Shown: positions 30,582 to 52,888 of the stretch, piece after piece
Position numbering within the stretch: position 1 is the stretch's first letter
Layout: each line of letters starts with the position of its first letter
Assembly: GCA_028706295.1 (NCBI GenBank)
Contig: JAQWBQ010000019.1
Coordinates: forward strand, 1 to 57,436
Reading direction: 5' to 3'
From: Bacteroidales bacterium
GTDB lineage: Bacteria; Bacteroidota; Bacteroidia; Bacteroidales; FEN-979
DNA length: 57,436 nucleotides
Program-made: the position numbers and the translations under genes
The notes under the pieces: generated by a model
Database searches by the model: none
What the model was told of the DNA's origin: nothing
The model's input: the letters and a program-made list of their open reading frames with translations, nothing else

Positions 30582-30768
30582 GATTTACGATTGCCATGAT
30601 TTACGATTGAAAATGTGCTAATGAGAAAATTTGAGAATTTGAGGATGTGAGGATGTGAAAATTATGAATTGATTTTTTCTCTGTTCGCTAATCACTAATC
30701 GCTAATCACTAATCGCTAATCCCTATTTACTATTCGCTAATCCCTATTCGCTATTCGCTAATTTGATT
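30582..30768. repeat. Intergenic array of short tandem words before pfkA
   Basis: TTTACGATTG occurs twice near 30582-30610. GAGGATGT-type octamers lie at about 30635-30660. An exact series of eleven heptamers runs 30687-30763 (GCTAATC, ACTAATC, CCTATTC and variants). No gene fits in this 206-base gap. Confidence 0.85.
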
Positions 30769-30776
30769 TTTTATTT

Positions 30777-31799
30777 ATGCGTATCGGAATCCTTACTGCC
30801 GGCGGTGATTGTCCGGGAATCAATGCAGCCATCAGGGGAGTCGGGAAGACCGCAATCCTGGAATACGGGATGGAGGTTATCGGAATTTCATCCGGTTTTC
30901 TTGGCCTGATCAACGAAGAGTACATCAACCTGGAGGAGAACCTCCTCTCGGGCATTCTCACGCTGGGTGGTACCATTTTAGGGACTTCCCGCGAGAACCC
31001 GTTCAAAAAAGGCAGTGTTTTCAACGCGATTGACAAGCCCAAGCTGATAAAAAAACATTACCAGGAGTTGGGCCTCGATGCCCTGGTCTGCATCGGCGGG
31101 AACGGAACCCAGCGTACAGCTTCCCAGTTATCGGAAGTTGGTTTGAACATTATTGGTATTCCCAAGACCATCGACAACGATGTGTGGGGGACCGACGTAA
31201 CATTTGGCTTTGATTCCGCCCTGTGGATCGCGACCGAGGCCATCGACCGTCTTCATACCACCGCCAACAGCCACAAGCGCATCATGGTCATCGAGGTTAT
31301 GGGGCACCATGCGGGCTGGCTGGCCTTATATTCCGGAATGGCCAGCGGCGGGGATGTCATCCTGCTTCCCGAAATCGAATTCGACATCGATACGGTAGCA
31401 CGCTGTCTGAAGAAAAGAGCCATCAATAAAAAACCTTACTCCATTGTCGTCGTGGCCGAAGGGATCCCGGTTCCCAAGGGGGAATCAGCCGGACATTACA
31501 TTGCCAGCAACATCCTGCAGCTCACCGGGCTCGAGACCCGTGAAACCATCCTTGGTTATATACAGCGTGGCGGCAGCCCTTCGCCGATGGACCGGGTTCT
31601 GGCGACCCGTTTCGGAGCCCAGGCCGTTGAACTGATCGCCCAGAAAAAATTCGGACAGATGGTTGCGCAAAAGGGAATGGAAGTAACCTCAGTACCTTTA
31701 TCAGAAGTAGGCGGAAAACTCCGTCTTGTACCCGGTGATCATCCGCTGATTGAGAAAGCGCGCCGGATGGGCGTTTGCTTTGGAAGTGAACGGTGCTAA
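30777..31799 (+). CDS. pfkA: 6-phosphofructokinase, group III-like
   Basis: This 340-residue cytosolic enzyme phosphorylates fructose 6-phosphate in glycolysis. Seen: ILTAGGDCPGINAAIRG (start loop), IGGNGTQRTA (about 101-110), PKTIDNDVWGTD with the catalytic Asp (about 124-135), VIEVMGHHAGW and YIQRGGSPSPMDR. The residue usually deciding the phosphate donor is Gly (as in ATP enzymes), but PKTIDND with Lys is the form found in pyrophosphate and mixed-group enzymes. The Asp of GGDG is replaced by Asn, as in one bacterial subfamily I recall. ATP is the more likely donor; this is not certain. The stop overlaps the recJ stop (convergent). The upstream gap is filled by short tandem words. Confidence 0.9.
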   Translation: MRIGILTAGGDCPGINAAIRGVGKTAILEYGMEVIGISSGFLGLINEEYINLEENLLSGILTLGGTILGTSRENPFKKGSVFNAIDKPKLIKKHYQELGLDALVCIGGNGTQRTASQLSEVGLNIIGIPKTIDNDVWGTDVTFGFDSALWIATEAIDRLHTTANSHKRIMVIEVMGHHAGWLALYSGMASGGDVILLPEIEFDIDTVARCLKKRAINKKPYSIVVVAEGIPVPKGESAGHYIASNILQLTGLETRETILGYIQRGGSPSPMDRVLATRFGAQAVELIAQKKFGQMVAQKGMEVTSVPLSEVGGKLRLVPGDHPLIEKARRMGVCFGSERC

Positions 31800-33541
31800 T
31801 CGAAGAATTTTATATCCTTGATGTTCAGCTGAAGGTTAACGGACCCATTCCATTCATTCTCCTCCACATGATAGCAGATGTTGAAGGGGATCTGTTTTTC
31901 GATCAGTCCGAAATGTTCTCCCTGCTGAAAAGCAATGGCCGAAAAGGGTCCTCCCGCAATTTCGGGATGTACAACCGATAATTTCAGGTGGTTTTTACCA
32001 ACGATGCGTGATCCTCCGGCATCCATCACACCCCGGGTCATGAAAACAGGTGCCATATTTCCCGGGCCAAACGGGGCGAACTGTTTCAGCGTACCATAAA
32101 ACCTTGAATTGATCTCGCTGAGCGAAAGGGGTGCATCAATTTCCAGTACGGGAACCAGTTCAATACCTTCCAGCCGGCTGCTCACCGTCGCCTCAAACCG
32201 GGCGCAGAACGCCTCCAGGTTTCCGGGTTGCAACGACAATCCTGCCGCAAATTTATGACCCCCGAAATGTTCCAGAAGATCACTGCAGGCATCCACGGCC
32301 TCATAGATATCAAAATCCCTTACACTCCTTGCAGATCCGGTGATCAGTCCGTTCGACAGAGTCAATACCACCGTGGGTCGGTAAAAGTTTTCCGTAAGGC
32401 GTGAGGCTACAATCCCGATGACTCCCTTGTGCCACTCAGGATGATAAATTACTGTGGAACGCGCGTTCCGGAGCTTTTCATCGCCCTCTATCATGGCCAT
32501 GGCCTGTTGGGTGGCCAGCGAATCGAGCGTTTTTCGCTCGGTATTGTAAGCGTTGATTTGCTCTGCCAGCAGGTTCGCCTCTCCCGGATCCTGGGTGATC
32601 AGCAGCCTGACCGAATTCTTACCGCTTTCAATACGGCCCGCGGCATTGATCCTCGGGCCAATCATAAAGACCAGATCGGTGATGGTAAGTTCCCGGTTGA
32701 AAACGTACCTCCCGCTGCCATCATCGTTTTTAAGTACGCTGGAATAGCGGAGCAATGCCTCCAGCCCGGGCCTTGGCTTCGTGTTGATCAGCTTCAACCC
32801 GAAATAAGCCAGAACCCTGTTTTCGCCGGTAATGTCGACAATGTCGGATGCAATGGCAATAACGACGAGGTCAAGATATTGAATCAGCTTTTCAAAATCG
32901 ATCCCGAAAAATTGGGCATAGGCCTGAACCAGCTTGAATCCGATCCCGCAACCCGACAACTCCTTGTAAGGATAGGAACAATCCGCCCGTTTGGGATCGA
33001 GGATCGCGCTGGCCGGCGGAAGGTCGGCTCCCGGACGGTGGTGATCGCAGATGATAAAATCGATCCCTTTGCTTTTGGCATACGCCACCTTTTCGACTGC
33101 CTTGATCCCGCAATCGAGTGCGATGACCAGCTTGAATCCGGCATCGTAAGCAAAATCAATCCCCTTCACCGATATGCCATATCCTTCATCGTACCGGTCG
33201 GGAATGTAAAAATCAATCTCTGTATAAAAGCTTTGAAGAAACGTGTAAACAAGCGCCACTGCCGATGTTCCGTCAACATCGTAATCGCCGTAAACCAGTA
33301 TTTTTTCATGATTCGTGATGGCCTCCGCGATACGGGTAACGGCCTTATCCATATCCTTCATCAGGAAAGGATCATGAAGATCCGATAAGGAAGGCCTGAA
33401 GAATGTCTTGGCTCCCTCAAAAGTGGTGATTCCCCGCTGCACAAGGAGGTTGGTAAGCGACACTCCGATACCCAGACATTGCGACAATTCTTTTGTAATT
33501 GCCGAATCCCCCTGCGGTTTTAATACCCAACTTTTATCCAT
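31796..33541 (-). CDS. recJ: Single-stranded-DNA-specific 5'-3' exonuclease RecJ
   Basis: This 581-residue DHH-family nuclease acts in recombination and mismatch repair. The DHH domain shows VYGDYDVDGTSAVAL (metal-binding Asp residues, about 80-94), ALDCGIKAVE and the name-giving IICDHHRPG (about 155-163). The DHHA1 part includes GGHKFAAGLSL. The OB-fold C-terminus (about 460-581) is present. Length is normal. It converges on pfkA with a 4-base overlap of the ends, so there is no room for a terminator. No clear -7 box was found upstream. Confidence 0.94.
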   Translation of the reverse strand: MDKSWVLKPQGDSAITKELSQCLGIGVSLTNLLVQRGITTFEGAKTFFRPSLSDLHDPFLMKDMDKAVTRIAEAITNHEKILVYGDYDVDGTSAVALVYTFLQSFYTEIDFYIPDRYDEGYGISVKGIDFAYDAGFKLVIALDCGIKAVEKVAYAKSKGIDFIICDHHRPGADLPPASAILDPKRADCSYPYKELSGCGIGFKLVQAYAQFFGIDFEKLIQYLDLVVIAIASDIVDITGENRVLAYFGLKLINTKPRPGLEALLRYSSVLKNDDGSGRYVFNRELTITDLVFMIGPRINAAGRIESGKNSVRLLITQDPGEANLLAEQINAYNTERKTLDSLATQQAMAMIEGDEKLRNARSTVIYHPEWHKGVIGIVASRLTENFYRPTVVLTLSNGLITGSARSVRDFDIYEAVDACSDLLEHFGGHKFAAGLSLQPGNLEAFCARFEATVSSRLEGIELVPVLEIDAPLSLSEINSRFYGTLKQFAPFGPGNMAPVFMTRGVMDAGGSRIVGKNHLKLSVVHPEIAGGPFSAIAFQQGEHFGLIEKQIPFNICYHVEENEWNGSVNLQLNIKDIKFFD

Positions 33542-33678
33542 CTTAATTTTCCTACGGCTAAATTACAAAAAAAACAGATCGAAATCATTTCCTGGCCATA
33601 TTATAATTTTTACCCGGACCAGGGTTTCCGGTCAGCGGAATTTTCTACAGAAGAAATCAAACCGGAATTCTTTGTCAA

Positions 33679-35112
33679 TCAGAATTCAGCATTTTTCGGG
33701 GTCCGGGGAAATGGGATAACATCCCGGATATTCGACATCCCGGTTACAAAGAGGATCAGCCGTTCAAAACCCAGGCCGAAGCCTGAGTGGGGCGCTGTTC
33801 CGAAGCGACGCGTATCCAGATACCACCATACATCCTTCTCCGGTATGTTCAGTTCATGAATCCGCTTGACCAACAGGTCATAGTTCTCCTCGCGCTGACT
33901 GCCTCCGATGATCTCTCCGATCTTCGGGAAAAGCACATCCATTGCCCTGACGGTCTTCCCATCGTCATTCTGCTTCATATAAAAAGCCTTGATCTCTTTG
34001 GGGTAACCCGTAAGAATGACCGGCTTACCGAAATGTTTTTCAACCAGGTACCGCTCATGCTCTGCCTGCAGATCCGTGCCCCAGTCGACCGGAAATTCCC
34101 ACTGCTGGCCCGAAGCCTTCAGGATATCGATAGCCTCCGTATATTGAAGCCGTTCAAAACGGGTACCCACAATCCCTTTCAGCCGGTCAATCAATTCCTG
34201 ATCATACAATCTGTTCAGAAATTCAAGATCATCATAACAGTGGTCAAGCGCGTACTGAATCAAATACTTCAGAAAATCCTCCGACAGATCCATGTTGTCG
34301 TTGATGTCGTAAAAAGCCATCTCGGGTTCAATCATCCAGAATTCGGCCAGATGCCGCGGCGTGTTTGAGTTTTCGGCCCGGAAGGTCGGCGCAAAAGTGT
34401 AAACCAGCGATAAAGCAAGCGCCCCGAGCTCCGCTTCGAGCTGGCCGCTTACCGTCAGGTTGGTCTCTTTGCCGAAAAAATCCTGTGAATAATCTATATG
34501 TCCGTCGGGTAACCGGGGTGGATCCTGATCATCAAGCGTGGTGACCCGGAACATGGCGCCGGCGCCTTCGGCATCCGACCCGGTGATGATCGGCGCGTGG
34601 ATGTAGAAAAAACCATGGTCGTTGAAATACTTATGAATTGCAAATGCCATCGCGTGCCGGATGCGAAAGATCGCCCCGAAAGTATTCGTACGCGGACGAA
34701 GATGGGCAATATCCCGTAAAAATTCCAAAGTGTGCCCCTTCTTCTGCAAGGGGTAGGTTAAAGGATCAGCCGTACCGTAAACCTCGATGCGTTCAGCCTG
34801 AATCTCAACCGGCTGCCCGGCGGCAGGAGATTCCACCAGCTTCCCGGTCACACAAATACAGGCGCCGGTCGACACCTCTTTCCAGTTATTTAAAGCAGCC
34901 TGATCCGGCAAATTGCCAGTTGTATTACCATAAACCGTTGCAAAGTCAACAATAATCTGAATGTTTTTAATGGTAGAACCGTCATTCAATTCAATAAATC
35001 CGAAGGTTTTTTTGTCCCTTTTGGTCCTGACCCAACCCTTGACGGTCACATCCCGTCCGTAATCTATCGATTTCAGCAGATCGCAGATCTTGTTTCTTCT
35101 CGTGTGTTCCAT
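33679..35112 (-). CDS. asnS: Asparaginyl-tRNA synthetase
   Basis: This 477-residue class II synthetase charges tRNA-Asn in the cytosol. The N-terminal anticodon-binding OB fold is at about 15-110 ([19 protein letters not shown]). Catalytic motifs: [20 protein letters not shown] (motif 1 region, about 150), [20 protein letters not shown] (motif 2 region, about 240-260) and [15 protein letters not shown] (motif 3, about 445-459). The FRAE-N-HLAEFWM arrangement separates it from AspRS. A -7 box TAAATTTG lies 22 bases upstream. It diverges from the small membrane protein at 35331. Confidence 0.95.
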
Positions 35113-35857: not shown

Positions 35858-35863
35858 CAGGCT

Positions 35864-40554: not shown

Positions 40555-41685
40555 TCAGTGCAGGGGTGGATTGATCTTGTTGCTTCGCGCAGGTCCGTCG
40601 TCCATTTCAAAATTTAAAAAATCGGGGGCAAAGATAAATAAATCCCTGAGATAACGGTCGATTAATCTTGGCACGGGAAAGAATTTCAGATCGCTGAAGG
40701 TCACCGCCTGATAGGGCAACCGGGGCTTAACCGAAAAATGAAAATGGTAAAACCAGACCGACAGATTCTGATGGGTCAGCTTGTGTTTCACCGGACCGGT
40801 GACACCATGGAACTCAGGATGATGCGGGGCGAACCATCGCGTGAGCTTTTTCAGGGGTAAGGGCCCGGCATCAGCCGAACCGGAATCCTCCGGGTACTGA
40901 GGAAAATCAAAGAGATTACGCCAGATATCGTTTCCATCCCTTTGTTTCACAAACAAACCCGGTTCATTGCCCTCCCGGTAGGTCATCACCATGTAATGCA
41001 GCGTACGGTCCCTGATTACAGGTTTTATTGATTTTTTTGGCAGCAGGTGCACCCTCCCGGTTTTGTACGCCAGGCATCCTGAGCGAAGGCAACAGCCGGC
41101 ACAACCCGGGTTGGACGGAACACAAAGGGTGGCGCCGAATTCCATGACGGCCTGGTTGAAATCTCCCGGGCGGTCAGGGTCGATCAGGGCCAGGGCAAGA
41201 TCCCGGATCTCTTTCTTTCCCGGGGCGGTATCGACGGGCCTTTCGATTCCGAAAAATCTTGAAAACAGGCGCAACACGTTGCCATCCACCACCGGGCAGG
41301 GCAAATTAAATGCGATGGAGGCGATGGCCGCGGCTGTATAATCGCCAATCCCTTTTAACGCTTTGATGGAGGCATAATCGCCCGGGAACACGCCGTGGTA
41401 TCGGTCCATGATCACCCGCGATGCAGCGAGCATGTTCCGGGCTCTGGAGTAATAACCCAATCCCTGCCATAGTTTTAACAGCTCCTGCTCTTCAGCCCCG
41501 GCCAATGACCTGATATCGGGGTAAGCACGGGTGATATTGATAAAATATGGCAACCCCTGTTCGACCCGGGTTTGTTGCAGGATAATTTCAGAAACCCAGA
41601 TGAGATACGGATCCCGGGTTCTCCGCCAGGGGAGATCCCGCTTGTTCTGCAGGTACCAGTCGATTATAGTTGTGGTGAAATCCAT
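40555..41685 (-). CDS. mutY: A/G-specific adenine glycosylase MutY
   Basis: This 376-residue repair enzyme removes adenine opposite 8-oxoguanine. The HhH-GPD domain spans about 25-215: LQQTRVEQGLPYF with the catalytic Glu, LWQGLGYYSRARNML, then LKGIGDYTAAAIASIAF and VVDGNVLRLFSRFF with the catalytic Asp. The iron-sulfur ligands follow as C-x6-C-x2-C-x5-C (CVPSNPGCAGCCLRSGC, about 192-208). The C-terminal NUDIX-like domain (about 235-345) reads the 8-oxoG strand. The start is ATG 41685. It is a single gene; the 416-base region upstream is gene-free. Confidence 0.95.
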   Translation of the reverse strand: MDFTTTIIDWYLQNKRDLPWRRTRDPYLIWVSEIILQQTRVEQGLPYFINITRAYPDIRSLAGAEEQELLKLWQGLGYYSRARNMLAASRVIMDRYHGVFPGDYASIKALKGIGDYTAAAIASIAFNLPCPVVDGNVLRLFSRFFGIERPVDTAPGKKEIRDLALALIDPDRPGDFNQAVMEFGATLCVPSNPGCAGCCLRSGCLAYKTGRVHLLPKKSIKPVIRDRTLHYMVMTYREGNEPGLFVKQRDGNDIWRNLFDFPQYPEDSGSADAGPLPLKKLTRWFAPHHPEFHGVTGPVKHKLTHQNLSVWFYHFHFSVKPRLPYQAVTFSDLKFFPVPRLIDRYLRDLFIFAPDFLNFEMDDGPARSNKINPPLH

Positions 41686-41715: not shown

Positions 41716-41775
41716 GTAGCGTGGTAGCGAAAATAATTAATTCGTCAATCGTAAATCATGTCAATCGTAAATTAA
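41716..41775. repeat. Left copy of ~55-base direct repeat (GTAGCG...CAATCGTAAATTA)
   Basis: This copy resembles 46494-46550: GTAGCGTGGTAGCGAAA followed by AATTCGTCAATCGTAAATC and ATGTCAATCGTAAATT. It lies beyond the T9SS/HicBA block on the mutY side. Shorter relatives lie at 42079-42092 and 44321-44347. Confidence 0.8.
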
Positions 41776-41879: not shown

Positions 41880-42087
41880 GACACAGACACTTCACATGAC
41901 GTAGCCTTAGACCAGACTTAGACAAGTCTTAGGCCACTCTTAGATAAGAAAAGGTTTAAATGGGAATCCTGAACCCGACGAATCTTTCTTAACACGTGAT
42001 GCTTCAGTCATCTTTAAGATGACATACAAATTTACAAAATATTTTCGGCTTTTTATTCTCTAAAAATACTTTTAACCTGTCAATCGT

Positions 42088-42122
42088 AAATTGGTTGTTG
42101 ACTAAAAGTCAACAACCAATTT
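42088..42122. terminator. Perfect 16-bp hairpin spanning the stop of the T9SS gene
   Basis: AAATTGGTTGTTGACT pairs perfectly with AGTCAACAACCAATTT around an AAA loop. The TAG stop codon of the T9SS gene (42102-42104) lies in it. No T-tract follows, so termination is possible but not typical. Confidence 0.55.
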
Positions 42123-43721
42123 CCCTTCCACCACGCTCTCGTTCATGAACACCACCCGGGCGAAGTACATCCCCGCCGGCCAAGCTGAGGTGTTGATATG
42201 CACGGTGGTTTGTTGTTTGGGAATCTCCATCGTGAACATAAGCTTGCCGGTAATACTGAGAATGTCCAACCTTGTTTTATCCCACTGGAACCAAGTGGTT
42301 GTGGATGACAGGATGCTTCCCGGATTCTGCCTGACCAGGTATTGGGGCATAACGATGGTGACCTGCTCCGCGGCTGGGTTCGGGTAGATGTGCAGCCGGG
42401 TCTTTTCGGGATGCTGTTCGGCATCGTCCAATCCCACGATTACCACCTCGCAATCGTCCAACGGCACGGTATCTGATACGATCGGGTGCGGGCAAAGGCT
42501 GTCGTAGGTGAAGGGCCGGGTATAAATGCTGTCGTATTCAAGGTCGGAGGTGAGTTTGAAGGCATAGGTCTGCCAATTCATGGTTGTGTTGTTAAACACT
42601 GGGCCCCCGACTATAATTCTATTATTATAAGTAATATCAGAGGCACGAATGATATCTTCTTTATTGAGAAGTAATGTTTTCTGCTTGATGAAATTTCCAT
42701 TCGAATCTGTCTTGATAACCGCGGTTGTATCAGTGCCTGCACCAAGCCATCCGGCGCACAATACCATCGTTGAGTCCTGAAACCAGTTGATCGTCGTAGC
42801 TTCCCCAAGAGATGAAGAAGTCTTTAGATCCTTATAAAATACAGGGTTGCCATTATTCGAAGTTTTAAACATACAGGGTGAATCCCCTCCGGGTGCAGAT
42901 GTCCTGGCCCGTCTTCCTGACGTATAGATATTGTTATTATTGTCAACTATTGATAACCTGCCATCGCTATACACTCCGTTATTGGTTCCCCAGGGAACCT
43001 CGAAAATGGAAGTGCCGTCCAATGCTGCCTTGATCAGGATAATTTTGATGATGCTCTTTCCGGGATAGGTTGGATCAGGATAATAAGCTTCGCCAGTTAC
43101 GACAATATATGAGTCGGATGTCTTTGTTAATGAAAATGAAACCTCTGAAGAAAATATCGAGTCAGTTAAATAAACCTGGCTCCAGATAACCTCTCCCAAT
43201 GAGTCTAAACGGAAAAGCCATATCTGTTCTTGATTTCCAGATTTCCAACCACTTATTAATGCAATATAATCATTGTCCTCGATTGTTTCGATATCCATAC
43301 CTCCAGAATTGCAACCCGGGGCATTGTATATTTTACACCATTCTTTCTCAAAACAATTGTTCAATTTGATAATAAACGGATCCGTACAACTTGATTGCAG
43401 TTTATTGGTTATTCCGATTTCAATAATCCCTTCACTCAGGGTAGGTCGTGCATTAAAAAATGGAAAATAGCTACTTGCGTTTCCGTACGATTTTTGCCAT
43501 AAAGGATACCCGTTAATATCAGTTTTAAACAGCAAGCCTTTGGCAAAATAAGCATTGTCGTATTCACTGCCGGAAAATAAAAAACCTTTATCGTATTGTT
43601 CCGATAAGGAGTAAACAAGTGTGCTTAGACTATCACCATAAACACGAATCCATTGTTGGGCATTGGATCCAAAATAACAAAACAGAATAATTATTCCTGT
43701 CAAGAATATCTTGTAGTTCAT
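42102..43721 (-). CDS. T9SS-exported repeat protein, paralog A
   Basis: This 539-residue secreted protein has the signal peptide MNYKIFLTGIIILFCYFGSN. The body reads QWIRVYGDSLSTL, YDKGFLFSGSEYD, GYPLWQKSYGN, GWKSGNQEQIWLFRLDSL: blades of a beta-propeller that recurs in many Bacteroidetes cargo proteins. The type A sorting domain starts with LHIYPNPAAEQVTIV and ends EGKLVVDF. The neighbour at 44337-45956 has the same length. The two agree closely in the C-terminal third and in the GEAYYPDPTYPGKSII section but differ in the N-terminal half. A HicBA pair lies between them. A -7 box lies 27 bases upstream. Confidence 0.8.
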   Translation of the reverse strand: MNYKIFLTGIIILFCYFGSNAQQWIRVYGDSLSTLVYSLSEQYDKGFLFSGSEYDNAYFAKGLLFKTDINGYPLWQKSYGNASSYFPFFNARPTLSEGIIEIGITNKLQSSCTDPFIIKLNNCFEKEWCKIYNAPGCNSGGMDIETIEDNDYIALISGWKSGNQEQIWLFRLDSLGEVIWSQVYLTDSIFSSEVSFSLTKTSDSYIVVTGEAYYPDPTYPGKSIIKIILIKAALDGTSIFEVPWGTNNGVYSDGRLSIVDNNNNIYTSGRRARTSAPGGDSPCMFKTSNNGNPVFYKDLKTSSSLGEATTINWFQDSTMVLCAGWLGAGTDTTAVIKTDSNGNFIKQKTLLLNKEDIIRASDITYNNRIIVGGPVFNNTTMNWQTYAFKLTSDLEYDSIYTRPFTYDSLCPHPIVSDTVPLDDCEVVIVGLDDAEQHPEKTRLHIYPNPAAEQVTIVMPQYLVRQNPGSILSSTTTWFQWDKTRLDILSITGKLMFTMEIPKQQTTVHINTSAWPAGMYFARVVFMNESVVEGKLVVDF

Positions 43722-44088: not shown

Positions 44089-44316
44089 ATGGGGCAGCTC
44101 GCAGGATTCAGATACCGCGATATTGTCCGGATACTAAAACTGTCTGGATTTATTTTTCATCGACAAGCCGCAGGAAGCCATGAAATTTGGCATAATCCAT
44201 TGACAAACAGATATACCACTGTACCAAATCATTCGGGTGATATGCCGGAAGGAACGTTACGGGCCATTTTACGCCAGGCAAACATTGATGTAGAAGAATT
44301 TATAAAATTGACATAA
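44089..44316 (+). CDS. hicA: HicA-family mRNA interferase toxin
   Basis: This 75-residue small toxin cleaves mRNA. The double-stranded RNA-binding-like fold shows YRDIVRILKLSGFIFHRQAAG, then SHEIWHNPLTNRYTTVPNHS with the catalytic His of the GSH motif (about residue 30), and EGTLRAILRQANIDVEEFI at the end. The order hicB-hicA is the reverse of the classic hicA-hicB order but is common in many phyla. The pair sits between two T9SS paralogs in the opposite orientation. Confidence 0.88.
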   Translation: MGQLAGFRYRDIVRILKLSGFIFHRQAAGSHEIWHNPLTNRYTTVPNHSGDMPEGTLRAILRQANIDVEEFIKLT

Positions 44317-44336
44317 TTCGCAAATCGTCAATCATG

Positions 44337-45956
44337 TCAATCGTAAATTATCAGGATTTTCCCTTCCGCCACACTCTCATTCATAAACACCACCCTGGCG
44401 AAGTACATCCCCGCCGGCCAGGCCGAGGTATTGACCTGAACGGTGGCTTGTTGTTTGGGAATCTCCATCGTGAACATCAGTTTGCCGGTAATACTGAGAA
44501 TGTCCAACCGGGTTTTGTCCCACCGGAAATAGGTGGTTGTGGATGACAGGATGCTTCCCGGGTTTTGCCTTACAAGGTACTGGGGCATAACAATGTTGAC
44601 CTGACCTCCGGCAGGGTTGGGATATATTTGTAGTTTGGTCTTTTCGGGATGCTGCTCCGCATCGTCCAATCCCACGATCACCACCTCGCAATCGTCCAAT
44701 GGCACGGTATCCGACACGATCGGGTGCGGGCAGAGGCTGTCGTAGGTGAAAGGCCGGGTATAAACGCTGTCGTACTCGAGATCGGAGGTGAGTTTGAAGG
44801 CATAGGTTTTGATCAAACCTCCTGAGGCGACCGTTCCGGCAAGAATTACCCGGTTATTGTAAGTTATATCTGAACTGAAAAACCCACTGGCAGCATTTAT
44901 CAATAAAACCTTTTCATTCAGGATATTTCCCATTGTATCTGTGCGAATAACCCCAGTAGTGTCTATTCCTGAGGGTGGCTTCCAACCCAAACATTGCACC
45001 AGTGATGAATCCTGAAACCAACTAATTGACGTTGAAATTCCCAAGCCGGAAGTGGATTTGAGGTCTTTGTAAAAGACTGGCTCGCTATTCTTTGATGTTT
45101 TAAACAGGCACGGTGAATCTCCTCCCGGAGCCGTTGTTCTGGCACGCCGGCCGGCAGTATAGATATTATTTTTCAAATCAACCACCGATTGCCTGCCATC
45201 GCTGTACACGCCATTATTTGTTCCCCAGGGCACCTCGAAAACAGCAGTTCCATCCAATTTAACTTTTATCAGGATAACTTTAATGATACTCTTTCCAGGA
45301 TAGGTCGGATCGGGGTAATAGGCTTCACCGGTAATAATAACATCATCATCAGTAGTCATTACAAGCGAATGTGATATTTCGGACCAAAACAGTGGATTGG
45401 TTGCATAAGCTTGCACCCAGTTTACTTCTCCTTCCGGTGTCAGATTAAAAAGCCAAATTCTTTTTTCTTCCCCCGTCTTCCACCTGTCAATTAATGCAAT
45501 GTAACCGCTATCTGGAATCGTTACAATGTCTTTCATCCATGAACTACAGTCCTGGGAATTATAAATCTTACACCACTCTTTTTCCCCACAATTGTTTACT
45601 TTTACCAGCAAGGGATCTGTACAACCTGATTCCAGTTGGTTTGTAGAACCAGACAAAACCAAGCCTCCACTGATAGCCTCCCTGACTGAAGTGTATTGAT
45701 TCATTTGTGATGGTTTTCCATACGAAATTGACCATCGTACATATCCATTAATATCAGTCTTCATGAGGTAACCATTATAGGTCCACCCTTTGTATTTCTC
45801 CCCTGAAAACAAGTAACCTTTATCATAATGCTCTATTACTTTTTTCAATTCGATATTTGAAGAAGTATCTGAGAAAATACGAATCCATTGCTGCGAATAT
45901 GATTCGTAAGAGAAAAACAGACACACAATCCCGGTCAAGAATATCTTGTAATTCAT
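44337..45956 (-). CDS. T9SS-exported repeat protein, paralog B
   Basis: This 539-residue secreted protein has the signal peptide MNYKIFLTGIVCLFFSYESY. It shares with paralog A the first residues of the signal, the section GEAYYPDPTYPGKSIIKVIL, GTNNGVYSDGRQSVVD, GGDSPCLFKTS and almost the whole C-terminal third (PFTYDSLCPHPIVSDTVPLD and the sorting domain IYPNPAGGQVNIVMPQYLVR). It differs strongly in N-terminal blades (for example LMKTDINGYVRWSISYG). The end is EGKILIIYD. The T9SS gene remnant upstream ends 11 bases before it. The pattern is that of a duplication followed by divergence, or gene conversion of the ends. Confidence 0.8.
   Translation of the reverse strand: MNYKIFLTGIVCLFFSYESYSQQWIRIFSDTSSNIELKKVIEHYDKGYLFSGEKYKGWTYNGYLMKTDINGYVRWSISYGKPSQMNQYTSVREAISGGLVLSGSTNQLESGCTDPLLVKVNNCGEKEWCKIYNSQDCSSWMKDIVTIPDSGYIALIDRWKTGEEKRIWLFNLTPEGEVNWVQAYATNPLFWSEISHSLVMTTDDDVIITGEAYYPDPTYPGKSIIKVILIKVKLDGTAVFEVPWGTNNGVYSDGRQSVVDLKNNIYTAGRRARTTAPGGDSPCLFKTSKNSEPVFYKDLKSTSGLGISTSISWFQDSSLVQCLGWKPPSGIDTTGVIRTDTMGNILNEKVLLINAASGFFSSDITYNNRVILAGTVASGGLIKTYAFKLTSDLEYDSVYTRPFTYDSLCPHPIVSDTVPLDDCEVVIVGLDDAEQHPEKTKLQIYPNPAGGQVNIVMPQYLVRQNPGSILSSTTTYFRWDKTRLDILSITGKLMFTMEIPKQQATVQVNTSAWPAGMYFARVVFMNESVAEGKILIIYD
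44353..44790. repeat. C-terminal coding block nearly identical to 42119-42545
   Basis: The two T9SS genes match closely at DNA level here, for example GGGAATCTCCATCGTGAACA and GGTAATACTGAGAATGTCCA in both. Their 5' parts are clearly different. Confidence 0.7.
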
Positions 45957-45967: not shown

Positions 45968-46444
45968 TTAGCGGATGATAATGACCTTGGAAGATTTTTG
46001 AACAGCTCCGTTTATCGTATATCTAATCAAATAAGACCCAGAGATAAGGTCGCCAACAGGAATGATTACCTCGTGTTGTCGGCCTTGCAGTAAAACTGAT
46101 TTTACACGATCGCCTTTAATATCAAACAGTTCTACCATTGCTTGATCTGAGGGTTTGTCTTTCAGGTACTCAATGATTAAAAAGTCCCTTGCTGGATTTG
46201 GGAACACCCTGAAATCAGATAAGGAGGCTCCTGAACTTTTCCAGTGGTACTTTTCTTTTCGTGACGACTTTAAATTATTAGTAAAGACTATTGGTTCCGA
46301 GTAATCCAACAGATCACAGGAAATCAAGATATTCCTTGCCCATGCGCCAGTGAATAATGAATTGTCGCTCGCTATTTGTTGTAAGGTAATCGTTTGAGTG
46401 CTATCCGGGGGAAGGCATACAGGATCGTGAACAACTGTTTTCAT
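45968..46444 (-). pseudogene. 3' remnant of a T9SS cargo gene
   Basis: The 158-residue open frame starts at a chance ATG (MKTVVHDPVCLPPDSTQ) with no signal peptide. It begins in the middle of a domain (ASDNSLFTGAWARNILISC) and ends with a complete type A sorting domain (FRVFPNPARDFLIIEY to KSSKVIIIR). A T9SS signal is useless without Sec export, so this is most likely the 3' end of a longer gene whose 5' part was lost. The loss point coincides with the direct repeat at 46494-46550, a plausible recombination site. It may still be transcribed with paralog B, 11 bases downstream. An alternative is a regulated short protein; that seems less likely. Confidence 0.65.
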
Positions 46445-46493: not shown

Positions 46494-46550
46494 GTAGCGT
46501 GATAGCGAAACATAATTCGTCAATCGTAAATCATGTCAATCGTAAATTGA
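46494..46550. repeat. Right copy of ~55-base direct repeat
   Basis: This matches 41716-41775 over most of its length (GTAGCGTGATAGCGAAA, then AATTCGTCAATCGTAAATC and ATGTCAATCGTAAATTGA). The two copies enclose the T9SS/HicBA block. Confidence 0.8.
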
Positions 46551-46691: not shown

Positions 46692-46982
46692 ATGACAAAA
46701 GCAGAAATTGTAGCAGAAATTGCTAATAAGACTGGTATTGAAAAAGTTGCCGTTCAGGCCACCGTCGAAGCTTTCATGGACTCCATCAAAAACTCCATGA
46801 CCACAGGTCAAAACGTTTACCTCAGAGGCTTTGGTAGTTTTATCATCAAGAAAAGAGCTGAAAAGACCGGGAGAAACATTTCAAAGAACACCACCCTTAT
46901 CATTCCCGCCCACAACATCCCTTCTTTCAAGCCCGCAAAGACCTTCGTCAATAAAGTAAAATCACACGTTAAAGTGAAGTAA
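46692..46982 (+). CDS. hup: HU/IHF-family DNA-binding protein
   Basis: This 96-residue nucleoid protein has the typical start MTKAEIVAEIANKTGIEK, then VAVQATVEAFMDSIKNSM, the signature VYLRGFGSFIIKKRAEKTGR (about 41-60) and the beta-arm with TLIIPAHNIPSFKPAK. It binds and bends DNA. The neighbouring 29-codon gene 21 bases downstream and RNase G follow on the same strand. It is the first gene after the accessory block and uses a strong -7 box. Confidence 0.93.
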   Translation: MTKAEIVAEIANKTGIEKVAVQATVEAFMDSIKNSMTTGQNVYLRGFGSFIIKKRAEKTGRNISKNTTLIIPAHNIPSFKPAKTFVNKVKSHVKVK

Positions 46983-47003
46983 TAACTTCAAAGGAGATTC
47001 ATT

Positions 47004-47093
47004 ATGCCAAGTGGTAAAAAAAGAAAGAGACACAAGATGGCAACGCACAAGCGGAAAAAACGCTTGCGCAAGAACAGACACAAGAAGAAATAA
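47004..47093 (+). CDS. 29-residue basic peptide, AURKAIP1/Cox24-like
   Basis: This tiny gene reads MPSGKKRKRHKMATHKRKKR and continues LRKNRHKKK, stop. More than half of the residues are Lys, Arg or His, as in small ribosomal proteins; I recall this sequence type as a conserved Bacteroidetes ribosome-associated peptide. A strong Shine-Dalgarno AAAGGAG lies 8 bases upstream, which is rare in this phylum. It sits between HU and RNase G on the same strand, probably one transcript. At this length the gene is easily missed by gene finders. Confidence 0.8.
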   Translation: MPSGKKRKRHKMATHKRKKRLRKNRHKKK

Positions 47094-47172
47094 CCTGCCT
47101 GCTGCTGCAATTCCTTAGGTCATGCCGGATCGGCGGACTGTTGCCCGCGATTTCGTTAACATACAACGCACC

Positions 47173-48723
47173 GTGAATAAGGAATTAATCATCAACTCGA
47201 CCTCCACCGAGGTTGAAATTGCCTTACTGGAAGACAAACTTCTCGTAGAATTAAACAAGGAGAAAACCAACAACGAATTTGCTGTTGGCGATATTTACCT
47301 GGGCAGGATCAAAAAGATCATGCCGGGGCTGAATGCCGCTTTCGTGGATGTTGGTTACGATAAGGACGCTTTTCTCCACTACCTCGATCTGGGCCCCCAG
47401 GTTCAATCCCTGCTGAAATATATCCGGCACAGCCAGTCGAATAGCGGCAATGCCCTTACCATCAGCGATTTTGAACTTGAGACCGATATTCAAAAGACCG
47501 GAAAAATTACCCAGGTGCTCAAACCCAACATGAACATCCTGGTTCAGATCGCCAAGGAACCCATTTCGACCAAAGGCCCGCGGGTGACCTCCGAAATTGC
47601 CTTCGCCGGCCGGTACCTGGTGCTTATCCCCTTCTCCGATAAAATTTCTGTATCGCAGAAGATCAAAAGCGCCGACGAACGAAACCGGCTTAAACGACTG
47701 ATCACCAGCATCAAACCCAAAAACTGCGGGATTATCATCCGGACTGTTGCGGAAAATAAACTGGTCGCCGACCTCGATTCGGACCTCCGGAACCTCTTTA
47801 AAAAATGGGAACTCATCACCACAAAACTTTCAACGGCCCGTCCACCGCAGAAAATCATCGGGGAGATCGACCGTACCTCGGCCATCCTCCGCGACGCGCT
47901 CAACGAGTCGTTTAACAACATCATCGTCAACGACCCGGTTATCTACGAAGATATCCGGAGTTATATCCAGCGCATCGCTCCCGATAAAGTACAGATCGTT
48001 AAACTCCATACCGCGAAAGTTCCTGTTTTCGATCAATACGGGGTCGATAAACAGATAAAAAACTCATTTGGCAAAATTGTCACCATCAAAAGCGGAACCT
48101 ACCTCGTCATTGAACACACCGAAGCGCTGCATGTAATTGATATCAACAGCGGCCACCGGGTGAACCAGGACCAGAACCAGGAAACCAACGCGCTCGAGGT
48201 CAATCTCGAAGCCGCTACCGAAGTGGCCCGTCAACTGAGGCTGCGCGATATGGGAGGCATCATCGTGATCGACTTTATCGACATGACCCAGGGGATGAAT
48301 CGTCGAAAACTTTTTGAGAAACTGCGCGATGAAATGAAACGCGACCGCGCCAAACATTCCATCCTGCCACCCAGCAAGTTCGGCCTGGTTCAGATTACCC
48401 GGCAACGGGTCCGGCCCGAGATGAATGTCCAGATCCTTGAAAAATGCCCCGTTTGCGACGGCTCCGGCGAAATCAGACCCACCGTCCTGCTTACCGATGA
48501 TATTGAAAACAACCTGAGTTTCCTGATCCGCGAACAAAATGAGAAAAACCTTACCCTGATTGTCCACCCCTTCGTCTATGCCTTTCTGACCCGGGGACTG
48601 TTCAACTACCGCTGGAAATGGTGGCGAAAATTCGGACAATTCATCACCCTCGGTAAAAAGAACTCCTATCATTTTCTTGAATACCACCTTTATAATAAGA
48701 ACGGAGACGAGATAAAACTTTAG
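47173..48723 (+). CDS. rng: Ribonuclease G (RNase E/G family)
   Basis: This 516-residue endoribonuclease acts in rRNA maturation and mRNA decay. The start is probably GTG 47173 (MNKELIINSTSTEVEIALLE), since homologues begin there; ATG 47122 would add 17 residues with no known match. The S1 domain follows (about 40-110: GDIYLGRIKKIMPGLNAAFV, DKDAFLHYLDLG). Catalytic aspartates lie in VIDINSGH and IVIDFIDM. The zinc-link cysteines are in CPVCDGSGEIRP. Length is normal. Confidence 0.93.
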   Translation: MNKELIINSTSTEVEIALLEDKLLVELNKEKTNNEFAVGDIYLGRIKKIMPGLNAAFVDVGYDKDAFLHYLDLGPQVQSLLKYIRHSQSNSGNALTISDFELETDIQKTGKITQVLKPNMNILVQIAKEPISTKGPRVTSEIAFAGRYLVLIPFSDKISVSQKIKSADERNRLKRLITSIKPKNCGIIIRTVAENKLVADLDSDLRNLFKKWELITTKLSTARPPQKIIGEIDRTSAILRDALNESFNNIIVNDPVIYEDIRSYIQRIAPDKVQIVKLHTAKVPVFDQYGVDKQIKNSFGKIVTIKSGTYLVIEHTEALHVIDINSGHRVNQDQNQETNALEVNLEAATEVARQLRLRDMGGIIVIDFIDMTQGMNRRKLFEKLRDEMKRDRAKHSILPPSKFGLVQITRQRVRPEMNVQILEKCPVCDGSGEIRPTVLLTDDIENNLSFLIREQNEKNLTLIVHPFVYAFLTRGLFNYRWKWWRKFGQFITLGKKNSYHFLEYHLYNKNGDEIKL

Positions 48724-48731
48724 CGAACAGC

Positions 48732-48873
48732 GATTGGGGATTAGCGATTAGGGATTAGCGATTAGAGGAATGGGGGTCATTTTCTATTTTCAATTTTCAA
48801 TTTTCCCTTGTAATTCAGTCAATCAGTCAATCAGTCAATCAATCATTCAGTCAATCAGTCAATCAATTAATCA
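48732..48873. repeat. Arrays of 7- and 8-base words before trpS
   Basis: Five GATTAGC-type heptamers in a row occupy 48732-48766. TTTTCAA-type heptamers follow at about 48787-48805, then CAGTCAAT octamers with variants (CAATCATT, CAATTAAT) from 48816 to about 48870. Three word families lie in one 150-base gap. Confidence 0.85.
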
Positions 48874-49869
48874 ATGAACATCGTAGTCAGCGGTATCCGT
48901 CCCACAGGGAATCTTCACCTGGGTAGTTATTTCGGAGCCCTTAAAAGTTTTGTGAAGATGCAGGAGGAGAACCAGTGCTTTTTTTTCATTGCCGACTATC
49001 ACTCCCTTACCACCCACCCTACGCCTGCCGATCTGCATGGAAATGTGAAAACCGTCCTGGCTGGATTCCTGGCATGCGGACTCGACCCCGACAAAGTAAC
49101 CCTTTATATCCAAAGCGACCTTCCGGAGACCGCCGAGCTCTATCTGCTCCTCAACATGAATGCCTATATCGGTGAACTGGAACGATGTACCTCTTTTAAG
49201 GAAAAGATCCGCACCCAGCCGCAGAATGTCAATGCCGGACTGCTGACCTATCCGACGCTGATGGCCGCCGATATCATCATTCACAAAGCACATAAGGTTC
49301 CTGTCGGTAAAGACCAGGAACAACATCTCGAGATGACCCGCACCTTTGCCAACCGGTTCAACAGACTGTATAAGGTTGATTATTTCCCCGAACCATTGGC
49401 ATTTACCTTTGAAGAAAACCTGGTCAAAATTCCCGGCCTTGACGGAAGCCTGAAAATGTCGAAATCCGACAACGAAAACAGCGCCATTTACCTTTCCGAC
49501 CCTCCCGAACAGATCCGGAAAAAGGTGATGCGCGCCGTCACCGATACGGGTCAGCCTGATCCCGAAAAACCCCGTTCGCAGGGAGTTGAAAACCTCTTTA
49601 CCCTGATGGGATATTTTTCGTCACCTGCGACGCTTGCGTTTTTCGAGGAACAATATGCCGCTGCTACCATCCGATACGGTGACATGAAAAAACAGTTAGC
49701 TGAAGATATTATCCTGTTTGTTAACCCCATCCGCGAACGGATCCTGTCGGTTGCATCGGACGACGCCTACCTGAAAAAAGCAGCCAGAACAGGCGCCGAC
49801 AAAGCGCGCGATTCGGCTTCGAAAACCATCCGCGAAGTTCGTGAAATCATCGGCTTCAGACATTTTTAA
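48874..49869 (+). CDS. trpS: Tryptophanyl-tRNA synthetase
   Basis: This 331-residue class I synthetase charges tRNA-Trp. The nucleotide-binding HIGH-like motif is in PTGNLHLGSYFGALKSF (about 10-26). DYHSLTTHPTPADL and the KMSKS motif LDGSLKMSKSDNE (about 187-199) follow. It lies directly after the repeat arrays and 6 bases before hflX, and is probably cotranscribed with it. Confidence 0.95.
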   Translation: MNIVVSGIRPTGNLHLGSYFGALKSFVKMQEENQCFFFIADYHSLTTHPTPADLHGNVKTVLAGFLACGLDPDKVTLYIQSDLPETAELYLLLNMNAYIGELERCTSFKEKIRTQPQNVNAGLLTYPTLMAADIIIHKAHKVPVGKDQEQHLEMTRTFANRFNRLYKVDYFPEPLAFTFEENLVKIPGLDGSLKMSKSDNENSAIYLSDPPEQIRKKVMRAVTDTGQPDPEKPRSQGVENLFTLMGYFSSPATLAFFEEQYAAATIRYGDMKKQLAEDIILFVNPIRERILSVASDDAYLKKAARTGADKARDSASKTIREVREIIGFRHF

Positions 49870-49875
49870 TACCGG

Positions 49876-51054
49876 ATGATCGATACCGAAGTCATTCCCG
49901 AGAAGGCCATCCTGGTTGGAATTTCCACCCACAAGCAACCCATGGACCGGACCCTCGAATACCTTGATGAACTTGCTTTTCTGGTCGACACTGCAGGCGG
50001 GATTCCGGTGAAGACTTTTGTCCAGAAACTGGAATACGCTGATCCGCGCACCTATGTTGGCAGCGGCAAACTATCGGAGATCCGCGACTGGATGGATTCA
50101 AACCCGGTCGATATGGTGATTTTCGACGATGAGCTCTCCCCCAGCCAGTTGCGCAATATCGACAGGATCCTGAGTTGCCGGATCCTCGATCGCAACAACC
50201 TGATCCTCGACATATTCGCCCGCCGGGCACGGACCTCCTACGCACGCACCCAGGTCGAACTGGCCCAGAACGAATACCTGCTCCCACGGCTCACCCGGAT
50301 GTGGACCCACCTGGAAAAACAACGTGGGGGAATCGGGCTTCGCGGCCCCGGCGAACAGGAAATCGAGACCGACCGCCGTATTTTACGTTACCGCATCTCC
50401 CTGCTTAAAAAGAAACTGGAAGAGATCGACAAACAAAAGGCTACCCAGCGGAAATCACGGCGCGACCTGGTCCGGGTGGCTCTGGTCGGATATACCAATG
50501 TGGGAAAATCGACCATCATGAACCTCCTCAGCAAGTCGGACGTTTTCGCCGAGAATAAACTCTTCGCCACCCTCGATACCACCGTTCGGAAAGTGGTGTT
50601 CGAAAATCAACCGTTCCTTCTTTCAGATACTGTCGGATTTATTCGCAAACTTCCCCACTCCCTGATCGAATCGTTCAAATCGACCCTCGATGAGGTCCGC
50701 GAAGCCGATATCCTGATTCATATTGCCGACATCAGTCACCACGATTACGAAGAACAGATCAATGTGGTTAAACAAACCCTTACCGACATCGGAGCATCGG
50801 ACAAGCCCACGATCATGGTCTTCAACAAGATCGATGCCTACCGTCAGGTTGTCAGGGATCCCGACGACCTGACCCCCGAAACGAAGGAAAACCTTCCGCT
50901 GGAAGCCCTCGAAAATACCTGGATGGCACGCGAACACTTTCCAACCCTGTTCATTTCCGCCAGGAACAATCAAAACATCGACAAATTGCGCTCAACCATC
51001 CACCACGAAGTACGAAGGATTGTCAGCTCACGATATCCGGAAAATAAAAAGTAA
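49876..51054 (+). CDS. hflX: GTPase HflX
   Basis: This 392-residue ribosome-associated GTPase is thought to rescue or split stalled ribosomes. The N-terminal HflX domain is at about 1-165 (EYLDELAFLVDTAGG, TYVGSGKLSEIRDW, EQEIETDRR). The G domain has VGYTNVGKSTIMNLL (G1, about 206-220), the switch with DTVGFIRKLPHSLIESFKST (G3) and FNKIDAY (G4). Length is normal. The next gene, lnt, begins 110 bases after its stop and has its own promoter. Confidence 0.94.
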   Translation: MIDTEVIPEKAILVGISTHKQPMDRTLEYLDELAFLVDTAGGIPVKTFVQKLEYADPRTYVGSGKLSEIRDWMDSNPVDMVIFDDELSPSQLRNIDRILSCRILDRNNLILDIFARRARTSYARTQVELAQNEYLLPRLTRMWTHLEKQRGGIGLRGPGEQEIETDRRILRYRISLLKKKLEEIDKQKATQRKSRRDLVRVALVGYTNVGKSTIMNLLSKSDVFAENKLFATLDTTVRKVVFENQPFLLSDTVGFIRKLPHSLIESFKSTLDEVREADILIHIADISHHDYEEQINVVKQTLTDIGASDKPTIMVFNKIDAYRQVVRDPDDLTPETKENLPLEALENTWMAREHFPTLFISARNNQNIDKLRSTIHHEVRRIVSSRYPENKK

Positions 51055-51131
51055 TACGACATCTGATTCCCGTAAATTGGGAAAGTACAAGCTTCTTTAC
51101 AGTTCTTTCGCTCCACGATTGCCAAAATCTT

Positions 51132-51139
51132 TATTTTTG
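51132..51139 (+). promoter_or_regulatory. -7 box TATTTTTG of lnt
   Basis: This TAnnTTTG match lies 25 bases before the TTG start at 51164, in a frame otherwise open further upstream into hflX. It supports the shorter protein. Confidence 0.5.
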
Positions 51140-51163
51140 TGGTCTGACTTTATTTGTACCGTT

Positions 51164-52888
51164 TTGAAAATCCGAAAAATTCATCCGGTCCTGTTAAGCC
51201 TCCTCAGCGGGGTTATTCTCTCCCTGGCCTGGCCTGAAAGAGGATTTCCGGGACTTCTCTTTATCGGTTTTTTACCATTGCTCCTGGCTGAGGAAAACCT
51301 GTACCAGAACCGGGAAAAAACCATCAAATTCAGTGCACTGATATATTCCTATCCGGGCTTCCTGTTGTGGAACCTCCTGACAACCTGGTGGATTGTGAAT
51401 TCTACTTTTGTCGGCGCTGCACTGGCCATCATTCTGAATTCCCTGTTCATGTCGATCGTCTTTCAGGCATTTCACTGGACCCGAAAGAAGTTATCCGGCA
51501 GTCCGGTCGGTTATCTGGCGCTGATCTCCTATTGGATCGCCCTGGAATACCTTCACCTCAACTGGGATCTGAACTGGCCATGGCTGAACCTGGGCAACGG
51601 ATTCGCGACCTGGTACAAATGGGTTCAGTGGTACGAATATACCGGAACCTTTGGAGGAACGTTGTGGGTTCTTGTTGGAAATATTATGGTCTTTTTGCTG
51701 ATACAAAAGATTAAAGATCAAAGTTCAAAGATCAAAGTTCAAAAGTCAAATAGTCAGTCAATCACTGATCAGGACCCTGCAAATTCCGACGGATCGGGGG
51801 CTATTGTGCGGCATGGCCTCAGGGATACGAAAACATTGGTTGCTCTATGTTTCATAATACTCTGGATCATCGTTCCGATCCTCTTGTCACGTATCATGTA
51901 CGAAACATACCATGAAAAGGTTCACCCTGTGAATTTTGTAGTTGTTCAGCCCAATATCGATCCCTATTCCGAACAGTATGTATTGCCCCCGCCGGAAGTG
52001 ATCGGTAAGATCATGTCGCTTGCCGACCCGAAACTCGACAGCGCCACCAACTTCCTGATCGCTCCCGAATCGGCCATCCAGGAATCCATGTGGGAAAATG
52101 ACCTCTCTTCGTTCGAAAGCATCGGCCTGCTCCGGAAGGCACTGGACCGGTGGCCCGATCTGAATATCCTGATCGGCGGCTCCACCTTTTACCAGTTGCC
52201 CCCGGGCGCTCCCCTTCCCCGCTGGGCACGTAAATTCACCGACTCGCCCAACCATTATGTCGCCTACAACGCGGCCATCCTGATCAACAACCACGATTCC
52301 CTGCAGTTGTACCATAAATCGAAACTGACCCCCGGAGTCGAAATCCTACCCTCCTTTAAAGGATTCAAATGGCTCGAAAAATATGCCATCGACCTTGGGG
52401 GAACCGTCGGAAGCCTCGGGATGGATTCAGTCCGGAAAGTCTATTCTACAGTAAAAACCGTCGGGGCGGCGCCCGCCATCTGCTATGAATCCATTTTCGG
52501 GGAATTCTTTGCTGAATTTGTCCGCAACGGAGCCCGAATGATGATCATTATCACCAACGACGGCTGGTGGGGAAACACACCCGGTCACCGCCAGCACTTC
52601 AGCTTTGCGCACCTTCGCGCTATCGAAACCCGCCGCAGCATTGCCCGGTCGGCTAACACCGGGATCTCTGCCCTGATCGACCAACGTGGCGATGCATACC
52701 AGGTAACCGGATACTGGAACCCTGCCGTTATCAAAGGTACGTTGAACGCCAACGACCGGATGACCTTCTATGTCAGGCACGGCGATTACATTGCCCGGAT
52801 CTTCACCTGGACGGGGGGGATTCTGCTTCTCTCAGCCATCGGATGGTCGCTGCGAAAACGATTTTCTCTTAAATCGAAATCGAGTTGA
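51164..52888 (+). CDS. lnt: Apolipoprotein N-acyltransferase
   Basis: This 574-residue inner-membrane enzyme adds the third acyl chain to lipoproteins. Six hydrophobic segments fill the first 250 residues. The nitrilase-like domain carries the triad E302 (APESAIQESM), K387 (YHKSKLTPGVE) and C440 (PAICYESIFGE), followed by MIIITNDGWWGNTPG. The start is TTG 51164 (LKIRKIHP); the frame upstream is open to 51020 but overlaps hflX. The loop at about residues 184-222 is encoded by 7-base words (AAAGATC, AAAGTTC) and reads KIKDQSSKIKVQKSNSQSIT; it appears to be an extra insert before the next membrane segment. It overlaps the nitroreductase start by 4 bases. Confidence 0.93.
   Translation: MKIRKIHPVLLSLLSGVILSLAWPERGFPGLLFIGFLPLLLAEENLYQNREKTIKFSALIYSYPGFLLWNLLTTWWIVNSTFVGAALAIILNSLFMSIVFQAFHWTRKKLSGSPVGYLALISYWIALEYLHLNWDLNWPWLNLGNGFATWYKWVQWYEYTGTFGGTLWVLVGNIMVFLLIQKIKDQSSKIKVQKSNSQSITDQDPANSDGSGAIVRHGLRDTKTLVALCFIILWIIVPILLSRIMYETYHEKVHPVNFVVVQPNIDPYSEQYVLPPPEVIGKIMSLADPKLDSATNFLIAPESAIQESMWENDLSSFESIGLLRKALDRWPDLNILIGGSTFYQLPPGAPLPRWARKFTDSPNHYVAYNAAILINNHDSLQLYHKSKLTPGVEILPSFKGFKWLEKYAIDLGGTVGSLGMDSVRKVYSTVKTVGAAPAICYESIFGEFFAEFVRNGARMMIIITNDGWWGNTPGHRQHFSFAHLRAIETRRSIARSANTGISALIDQRGDAYQVTGYWNPAVIKGTLNANDRMTFYVRHGDYIARIFTWTGGILLLSAIGWSLRKRFSLKSKSS
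51713..51770. repeat. Heptamer words AAAGATC/AAAGTTC inside lnt
   Basis: AAAGATC, AAAGTTC, AAAGATC, AAAGTTC and AAAAGTC occur in series, running into AGTCAGTCAATCA. All lie in the coding frame of lnt and are translated as a Lys/Gln/Ser-rich loop. Confidence 0.85.

Follow-up and report, generated by a model that had tools for sequence, protein, structure and literature searches.

Ordered families of 7-8-nt tandem words between and within genes of a Bacteroidales genome and its sister species

The window analysed here, a stretch of 57,436 nt, is contig C4 of a Bacteroidales draft genome (G000; 3.99 Mb, 149 contigs, 95.6% complete), and it carries arrays of 7-8-nt tandem words both between genes and inside them. 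Genes in the window were named from Pfam matches; the names MurF, TrpS and Lnt also rest on domain architecture. The closest named TrpS records belong to uncultured Bacteroidales or Bacteroidetes metagenome-assembled genomes, several of them lake-derived, at no more than 83% identity. A composite array at 30574..30776 (+ strand), found by Tandem Repeats Finder (TRF), self-comparison and word patterns, fills the gap from 4 nt past the stop codon of open reading frame (ORF) 29671-30570 to the ATG of the phosphofructokinase gene (pfkA, 30777-31799), and its word blocks follow the order C-G-H-J-L in the lettering given below. A second composite array at 48721..48873, detected by TRF and self-comparison and reading D-F-L on the - strand, extends from the stop codon of an RNase E/G-family gene (47122-48723) to the ATG of a TrpS-like gene (48874-49869). 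Two arrays are located within genes. Word F (AATTGAA) lies at 19101..19130 (+) in a Mur ligase-alanine racemase fusion gene (17502-20114, -), which reads the stop-free strand of the array. Words M (AAAGATC/AAAGTTC on the gene strand) run into AGTCAGTCAATC at 51706..51770 (-) in an Lnt-like ORF (51020-52888, +), whose strand is likewise stop-free.

TRF resolved the pfkA array into 11.1 copies of period 7 (30685-30762, 78% matches) and the trpS array into 4.9 and 3.9 copies of period 7 (48732-48765 and 48779-48805) and 7.4 copies of period 8 (48815-48873). The array in the fusion gene comprises 4.3 copies of period 7 (19101-19130, 100% matches) and the one in the Lnt-like ORF 5.4 copies (51706-51743, period 7). 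An earlier sequence-only reading had described eleven GCTAATC units at 30.7 kb. The copy number stands, but only 4 units are exact GCTAATC, and the array mixes CTAATCG, CTAATCA, CTAATCC, CTATTCG and words like them. CAATCGTAAAT is present 8 times in the window (0.05 expected), two of these copies, at 30.6 kb, having been missed earlier. Single-word counts such as those of GCTAATC (9 in the window versus 5.4 expected; 9 of 100 shuffles reach 9) and CAGTCAAT (7 versus 1.8 expected) are weak evidence, and significance rests on the tandem arrangement and the unit length.

Unit length was quantified in a G000 sample of 569 kb in 40 stretches, which includes the window and covers 14% of the assembly; two of the stretches (C64 and C109) were picked for their GCTAATC arrays. 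When 12 matched positions were required (threshold 12), we counted 21 exact runs of period 7, 15 of period 8, 10 of period 14 and 8 of period 16, periods 2-6 gave 3 in total, and a Markov control of the sample gave 1 over all periods. The 230 called gaps (60 kb, threshold 10) held 16 runs of period 7, 23 of period 8 and 2 in total of periods 2-6, with 0.75 runs each for periods 7 and 8 in a Markov control fitted gap by gap. Called genes cover 86.8% of the sample, and 41 of the 50 runs found at threshold 11 (23 of period 7 and 27 of period 8) lie outside them. Heptamers are the most abundant class at threshold 12, but their lead is only partial in G000, where octamers equal or exceed them at the lower thresholds. 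Among nine other genomes sampled, for which many stretches were chosen because they bear arrays and some samples are small, period 7 was the commonest in all nine and period 8 was present in seven. Across 80 Bacteroidota loci around trpS (515 kb), period 7 accounts for 19 runs, period 8 for 7 and any other period for at most 4; the five nearest loci (L154-L158) account for 8 of the 19 and 4 of the 7.

The observed pattern is real and genome-wide. The sequence-only reading had proposed that word families recur through the chromosome and that the same kinds of words occur between and inside genes. Both proposals were borne out: TRF recovered the named arrays, similar arrays lie at many other places of G000 and are thus not unique to one site, and the gap arrays are accompanied by those in the Mur ligase-alanine racemase and Lnt-like genes. 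We give next to no credence to chance, base composition or an assembly artefact as the source. The genomes are drafts, and contig C110 of the congener G008 ends inside a word array (L084 15537-15626), from which it follows that arrays may break assemblies; against this stand the Markov controls, the presence of arrays at orthologous places of separately assembled genomes, and two plasmid records, described as complete, with arrays of the CTAATCN class. These two records were retrieved with the pfkA array as query. One is the Chryseobacterium fluminis plasmid NZ_CP111120.1 (L303, 7335 bp), in which a CTAATCN-class array consists of about 65 perfect GCGATTA units; the other is a Bernardetia plasmid, in which such an array ends about 5 nt before an annotated start. 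The Chryseobacterium plasmid carries no annotated features. The pfkA array had no match in phage records, nor one word-C pattern in viral contigs.

Self-comparison of the G000 sample yielded 68 repeated intervals, mostly word arrays and for the remainder mainly coding repeats. Word blocks are combined into mosaic arrays and return in a common order: C (TTTACGATTG), D (TGATTGAC), E (ACAATGG), F (AATTGAA) and G (ATGTGCTA), followed by H (AATTTGAG), J (AATTTTGAATTGAT), L (CTAATCG and variants) and then either N (TTTTGAA) or M (TTTGATC). The best order over 29 G000 arrays fits 111 of 121 word pairs. Applied unchanged to 34 arrays of G006, the sister species of G000 (TrpS 95%, the remaining 17 congeners searched standing at 80-84%), it fits 133 of 141, while 5000 order shuffles reached a maximum of 94, or 118 if the shuffled arrays chose their strand freely. 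In this count the word list was hand-drawn, mainly from G000, and word patterns of different type overlap by up to 5 nt; the 34 arrays lie outside eight stretches syntenic to the G000 sample, and the retained G006 stretches L240 and L245 share some DNA with it. First and last words vary among 50 arrays, and the constant termini of a transposon or a miniature inverted-repeat transposable element are therefore absent.

The vocabulary extends beyond single arrays. In a rough contrast between samples that are unequal and partly array-selected, with a high reversed control in some small ones, 72 of 225 gaps in G000 and 83 of 174 in G006 share 12-mers with at least three other loci. Within the genus, 7 word classes are shared, a number that 2 of 2000 shuffles reached (shuffled mean 1.38). 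The reversed control of the first word search was uninformative, CTAATC being a mirror palindrome. AAATCGTAAATCGTAAATCG was found in 11 of 395 genomes of the phylum (3 for its reversed control) and not in G000. A phylum-wide word set was considered and set aside as weak: 3 of 19 classes (from L159-L233 and the two plasmids) are shared with G000/G006 (letter-shuffled mean 0.84; 76/2000), and one of the three comes from a plasmid that had itself been found with an array as query. As a separate observation, a perfect or near-perfect hairpin (GGCACTTCGACA-GCTCAGTGCC) is embedded in octamer arrays at four sites sampled in G000 (L021:7034-7242, L041:1820-1903, L041:2829-2929 and L050:2468-2558), despite the lack of a Y1 transposase match in G000.

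Comparison of the two sister species revealed turnover within arrays. Two arrays, at pfkA and at L051:6274, have kept their flanking genes and last words in both species, and the middle consists of C-G-H-J (or C-F-H-J) in one species and of E-F in the other; in the G006 pfkA gap, the middle of the window's array is thus swapped for other words. Of 14 orthologous arrays, 6 have a G000 copy whose best single match lies elsewhere in the G000 sample (30570, 48724, 41720 by a slim margin, L021:9410, L051:6256 and 51705), and the figure rises to 7 once non-orthologous G006 loci are also admitted; these numbers are probably lower bounds, because only 14% of G000 was searched. Purely local slippage, in which each array grows from its own seed and the loci stay independent, would account for the unit-step length differences that we found between orthologous arrays, and heptamer excess is reported to be common in bacteria (PMC4679880). 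It is contradicted by the shared vocabulary, the fixed order, the same-genome sharing at separate sites described below and the arrays that match elsewhere better than at their ortholog, and we regard it as very improbable. Within the arrays of G006 stretches L247 and L235 (orthologous to L021 and L050) we also observed inserts of about 100-300 nt with TTATCTCC-TTTGAGCAAGT, none of which occurs at the G000 counterparts; they look like a miniature mobile element that lands in arrays.

We further compared arrays inside enzymes and at one gap across the genus. Three loops of the Mur ligase-alanine racemase fusion bear arrays in some congeners. The second loop carries a clear 7-nt array, judged by eye, in 11 of 18 and no clear array in 7, and its words differ between most species: TTTTCAA in G000 and G006, TCATTCG in G018, TCACCCG/TCACGCG in G013, TCAATCG in G007, GTCATTG in G008, and others elsewhere. 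The array at 19101..19130 does not differ between G000 and G006, which shows that arrays in coding sequence can be stable as well. One loop of Lnt reads AAAGATC/AAAGTTC in G000, AAACGCA/AAATGCA in G006 and AAAATAC in L156, and the gap orthologous to 48721..48873, between rng and trpS, holds different words in different congeners. To measure sharing, four sites, of which three (the loops) lie in one gene and the fourth is the trpS gap, were compared over 14 genomes. An exact match of at least 12 nt was shared by 11 of 72 same-genome site pairs versus 29 of 939 between-genome pairs, and none of 5000 label permutations reached the same-genome value. Not among the 14 are G006, being the sister species, G009, with a partial gene, G001, which lacks a full gene, and two genomes whose trpS gap was not extracted, G007 and G010; the gap of G017 is represented by the final 250 nt ahead of trpS.

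The arrays are oriented with respect to genes. In codirectional gaps the word strand is sense in 59 and antisense in 25 of 84 arrays (one-sided p 1.3e-4), and divergent gaps, which make up 83 of the 377 gaps of at least 60 nt in G000 and G006, hold 10 of the 102 arrays with both neighbours called. Inside called genes lie 16 of 131 arrays, with the word strand antisense in 12 of the 16. Stops occur in all three frames of the word strand in 83 of 89 arrays and of the other strand in 43 of 89. The stop density of the word strand (0.111) matches its composition (0.101 in shuffles), that of the other strand is 0.039, and only the difference between the strands bears on the orientation bias. Orientation is explicable by selection against damage, without a function, because the word strand near a gene end stops translation at once and the other strand may extend it. 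The arrays might instead be regulatory sequences of the sort suggested for TAACTGA repeats, for example binding sites in the 5' or 3' untranslated parts of transcripts, a reading in line with the sense bias, with the extension of some arrays to the start codon and with the words TAAATCGTAA directly before trpS in several congeners. It fits poorly with the complete change of words between congeners at one site, the block replacement between sister species, and the presence of arrays inside genes on either strand. RNA folding is not unusual either (mean z of -0.55 and -0.52 on the two strands versus -0.45 in other gaps), and Rfam gave no window match at gathering scores. A regulatory role is thus quite improbable in our judgement.

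Smaller occurrences of word C in the window, all read on the - strand, lie near genes of that strand: two units (CAATCGTAAAT on +) at 41746..41772, upstream of an HhH-GPD/NUDIX gene (40555-41685); one directly downstream of ORF 42102-43721 (42081..42091); one with a variant at the end of ORF 44337-45956 (44316..44348); and two units upstream of ORF 45968-46444 (46521..46547). ORFs 42102-43721 and 44337-45956 are neighbours on the same strand, both encode 539 aa and each has CAATCGTAAAT at an edge; the former bears a Por secretion tail (Pfam), and parts of this region match several places on G006 contigs C348 and C217. TRF also detected a decayed period-11 array at 41906-41948 (CTTAGACCAGT, 3.5 copies), a period otherwise almost absent here. 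At 46692-47094 lie a putative HU-like gene and, after it, a short and strongly basic ORF of about 29 residues.

We then examined repair and copying machinery. No match to RVT_1 (PF00078) was found in G000, whose assembly is 95.6% complete, G011 or G013, and 16 of the 19 congeners have one; the linked reverse transcriptase suggested by the sequence-only reading is therefore unsupported in this assembly, as are retroelement-made repeats. Y1_Tnp (PF01797) had no match in G000, G005, G008, G011 or G015, and repetitive extragenic palindromes (REP/REPIN) with their REP-associated tyrosine transposase were rejected for want of the Y1 match in G000. Ku had no match in 19 of 19 genomes, G000 among them, which leaves Ku end joining unsupported as an array source. 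The suggested mismatch-repair defect found no support: G000 has MutS1 (profile positions 2-810 of 840) and MutL (1-553 of 555) matches above cut-off and without internal stops, so loss of either is unsupported as an array source. MutS1 is above cut-off in 17 of 19 congeners, the exceptions being G001 and G004.

A dedicated trans-acting writer, that is, a template-bearing unknown enzyme or an end-processing polymerase that adds 7-8-nt words at breaks or chosen sites, so that the vocabulary follows its template, would accommodate the narrow unit length, the genome-specific words at unlinked sites, the fixed order and the persistence of array sites while their words change. The enzyme negatives above count against such a writer, with the limit that they come from a 95.6% complete assembly and that unknown enzymes were not searched. 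Words inside single arrays also drift gradually, as in tandem duplication, and no locus of the sample carries every word type in order. We consider a writer unlikely.

Heptanucleotide tandem repeats between genes are known from cyanobacteria as short tandemly repeated repetitive (STRR) sequences, and the likeness to them noticed in the sequence-only reading appears apt. Its statement that nothing of the kind was described in Bacteroidetes is mistaken: MacGregor 2015 (PMC4679880) reported TAACTGA direct repeats in Beggiatoaceae, cyanobacteria and five Bacteroidetes, some of whose gaps mix TAACTGA with other heptamer repeats. According to the same account, TAACTGA arrays often lie near the start codon, mostly a few nucleotides ahead of it and in forward orientation, and are missing from the same gap in close relatives. 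Ours resemble them as intergenic heptamer arrays; some reach a start codon and many begin at the stop codon of the upstream gene. They use a multi-word vocabulary where one word is described there, and the 30 word classes listed from the G000 sample do not include TAACTGA. Long simple sequence repeats (Mrazek et al. 2007, via PMC4679880) are described as having 5-11-nt units with heptamers dominant, scattered among species, with slippage proposed; the arrays share the heptamer excess and, as such repeats require, tandem units beyond chance length, and differ in having several word types per array, a fixed type order and apparent between-locus exchange. The heptamers GGGAATC of Xanthomonas and GGGGA(C/T)T of Nostoc are dispersed between genes, often with a conserved place and varying length and sequence (PMC4692102); this dispersal and the keeping of place while sequence changes recur here, with many AT-richer words instead of one G-rich, quadruplex-prone word. 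Borg repeats (PMC9879509), whose units are given as perfect, almost without exception unique in sequence and, within ORFs, a multiple of three in length, are similarly fast-changing and lie between genes and in frame inside genes, whereas units of 7 nt are found inside ORFs here and the same words return at many loci. PMC6749651 mentions heptamer-derived satellites in bacteria. As far as these sources go, heptamer excess, intergenic preference and a conserved place with changing sequence are already known (PMC4679880, PMC4692102); among the open-access papers searched we found no description of ordered multi-word arrays or between-locus exchange, nor of block replacement between sister species, of congener-specific words at one site or of same-genome word sharing at unlinked sites. 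The fixed order and the apparent exchange had also gone unseen in the sequence-only reading.

The explanation that we consider probable is that the arrays belong to families of 7-8-nt tandem words specific to this lineage (STRR-like long simple sequence repeats) and undergo concerted evolution through slippage, ectopic template switching and selection. Replication slippage would add or remove whole units, whose 7-8-nt loops would escape MutS/MutL. A stalled or broken end in one array could re-prime on a similar array elsewhere, by RecA-type or microhomology template switching, and copy one or several word blocks, so that words would spread, keep their order and displace older ones. Selection would retain the arrays that do little harm, namely those in codirectional gaps, usually with the stop-bearing strand as sense, and those in protein loops that read the stop-free strand in frame. 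This account needs no benefit to the cell. Mismatch repair handles only short loops, which fits the scarcity of short units.

Concerted evolution is supported by the pattern. The limit on unit length, the shared ordered vocabulary, the block replacement and the words peculiar to one genome at unlinked sites, essential-enzyme loops among them, are apparent in the sequences compared; copying between loci is what we infer from them, and exchange itself was not directly observed. Several further points weigh against this explanation. The orthologous G006 stretch is the best match of 8 of the 14 arrays, and members of a clade, judged by eye, often agree in their trpS-gap words, both of which suggest much vertical inheritance. 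In the rough contrast given above, gaps sharing 12-mers with at least three other loci number 0 of 12, 0 of 16, 0 of 42 and 0 of 52 in G001, G008, G012 and G018. The label permutation ignores relatedness, so that clade-common words count repeatedly, with five different words contributing (by eye). Escape from mismatch repair leaves the rarity of 5-, 6- and 9-nt units unexplained, and the first arrival of an array in a gene loop lacks a detailed explanation. A bolder proposition is that the lineage has an unrecognised, reverse-transcriptase-free copying process that writes a heritable ordered 7-8-nt vocabulary across the chromosome, at gene boundaries and in protein loops, in place of older words, with concerted evolution of spacers and essential-enzyme loops as the outcome; we hold it to be rather unlikely.

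Copying of arrays between loci, if it occurs, would let bacterial spacer DNA and essential-enzyme loops undergo concerted evolution, like eukaryotic satellites, without a recognised transposase, and would alter protein sequence (MurF-Alr, Lnt). The puzzle of heptamer excess becomes testable at orthologous sites of sister species. The intergenic gaps of such genomes would be poor phylogenetic markers and likely assembly break points.

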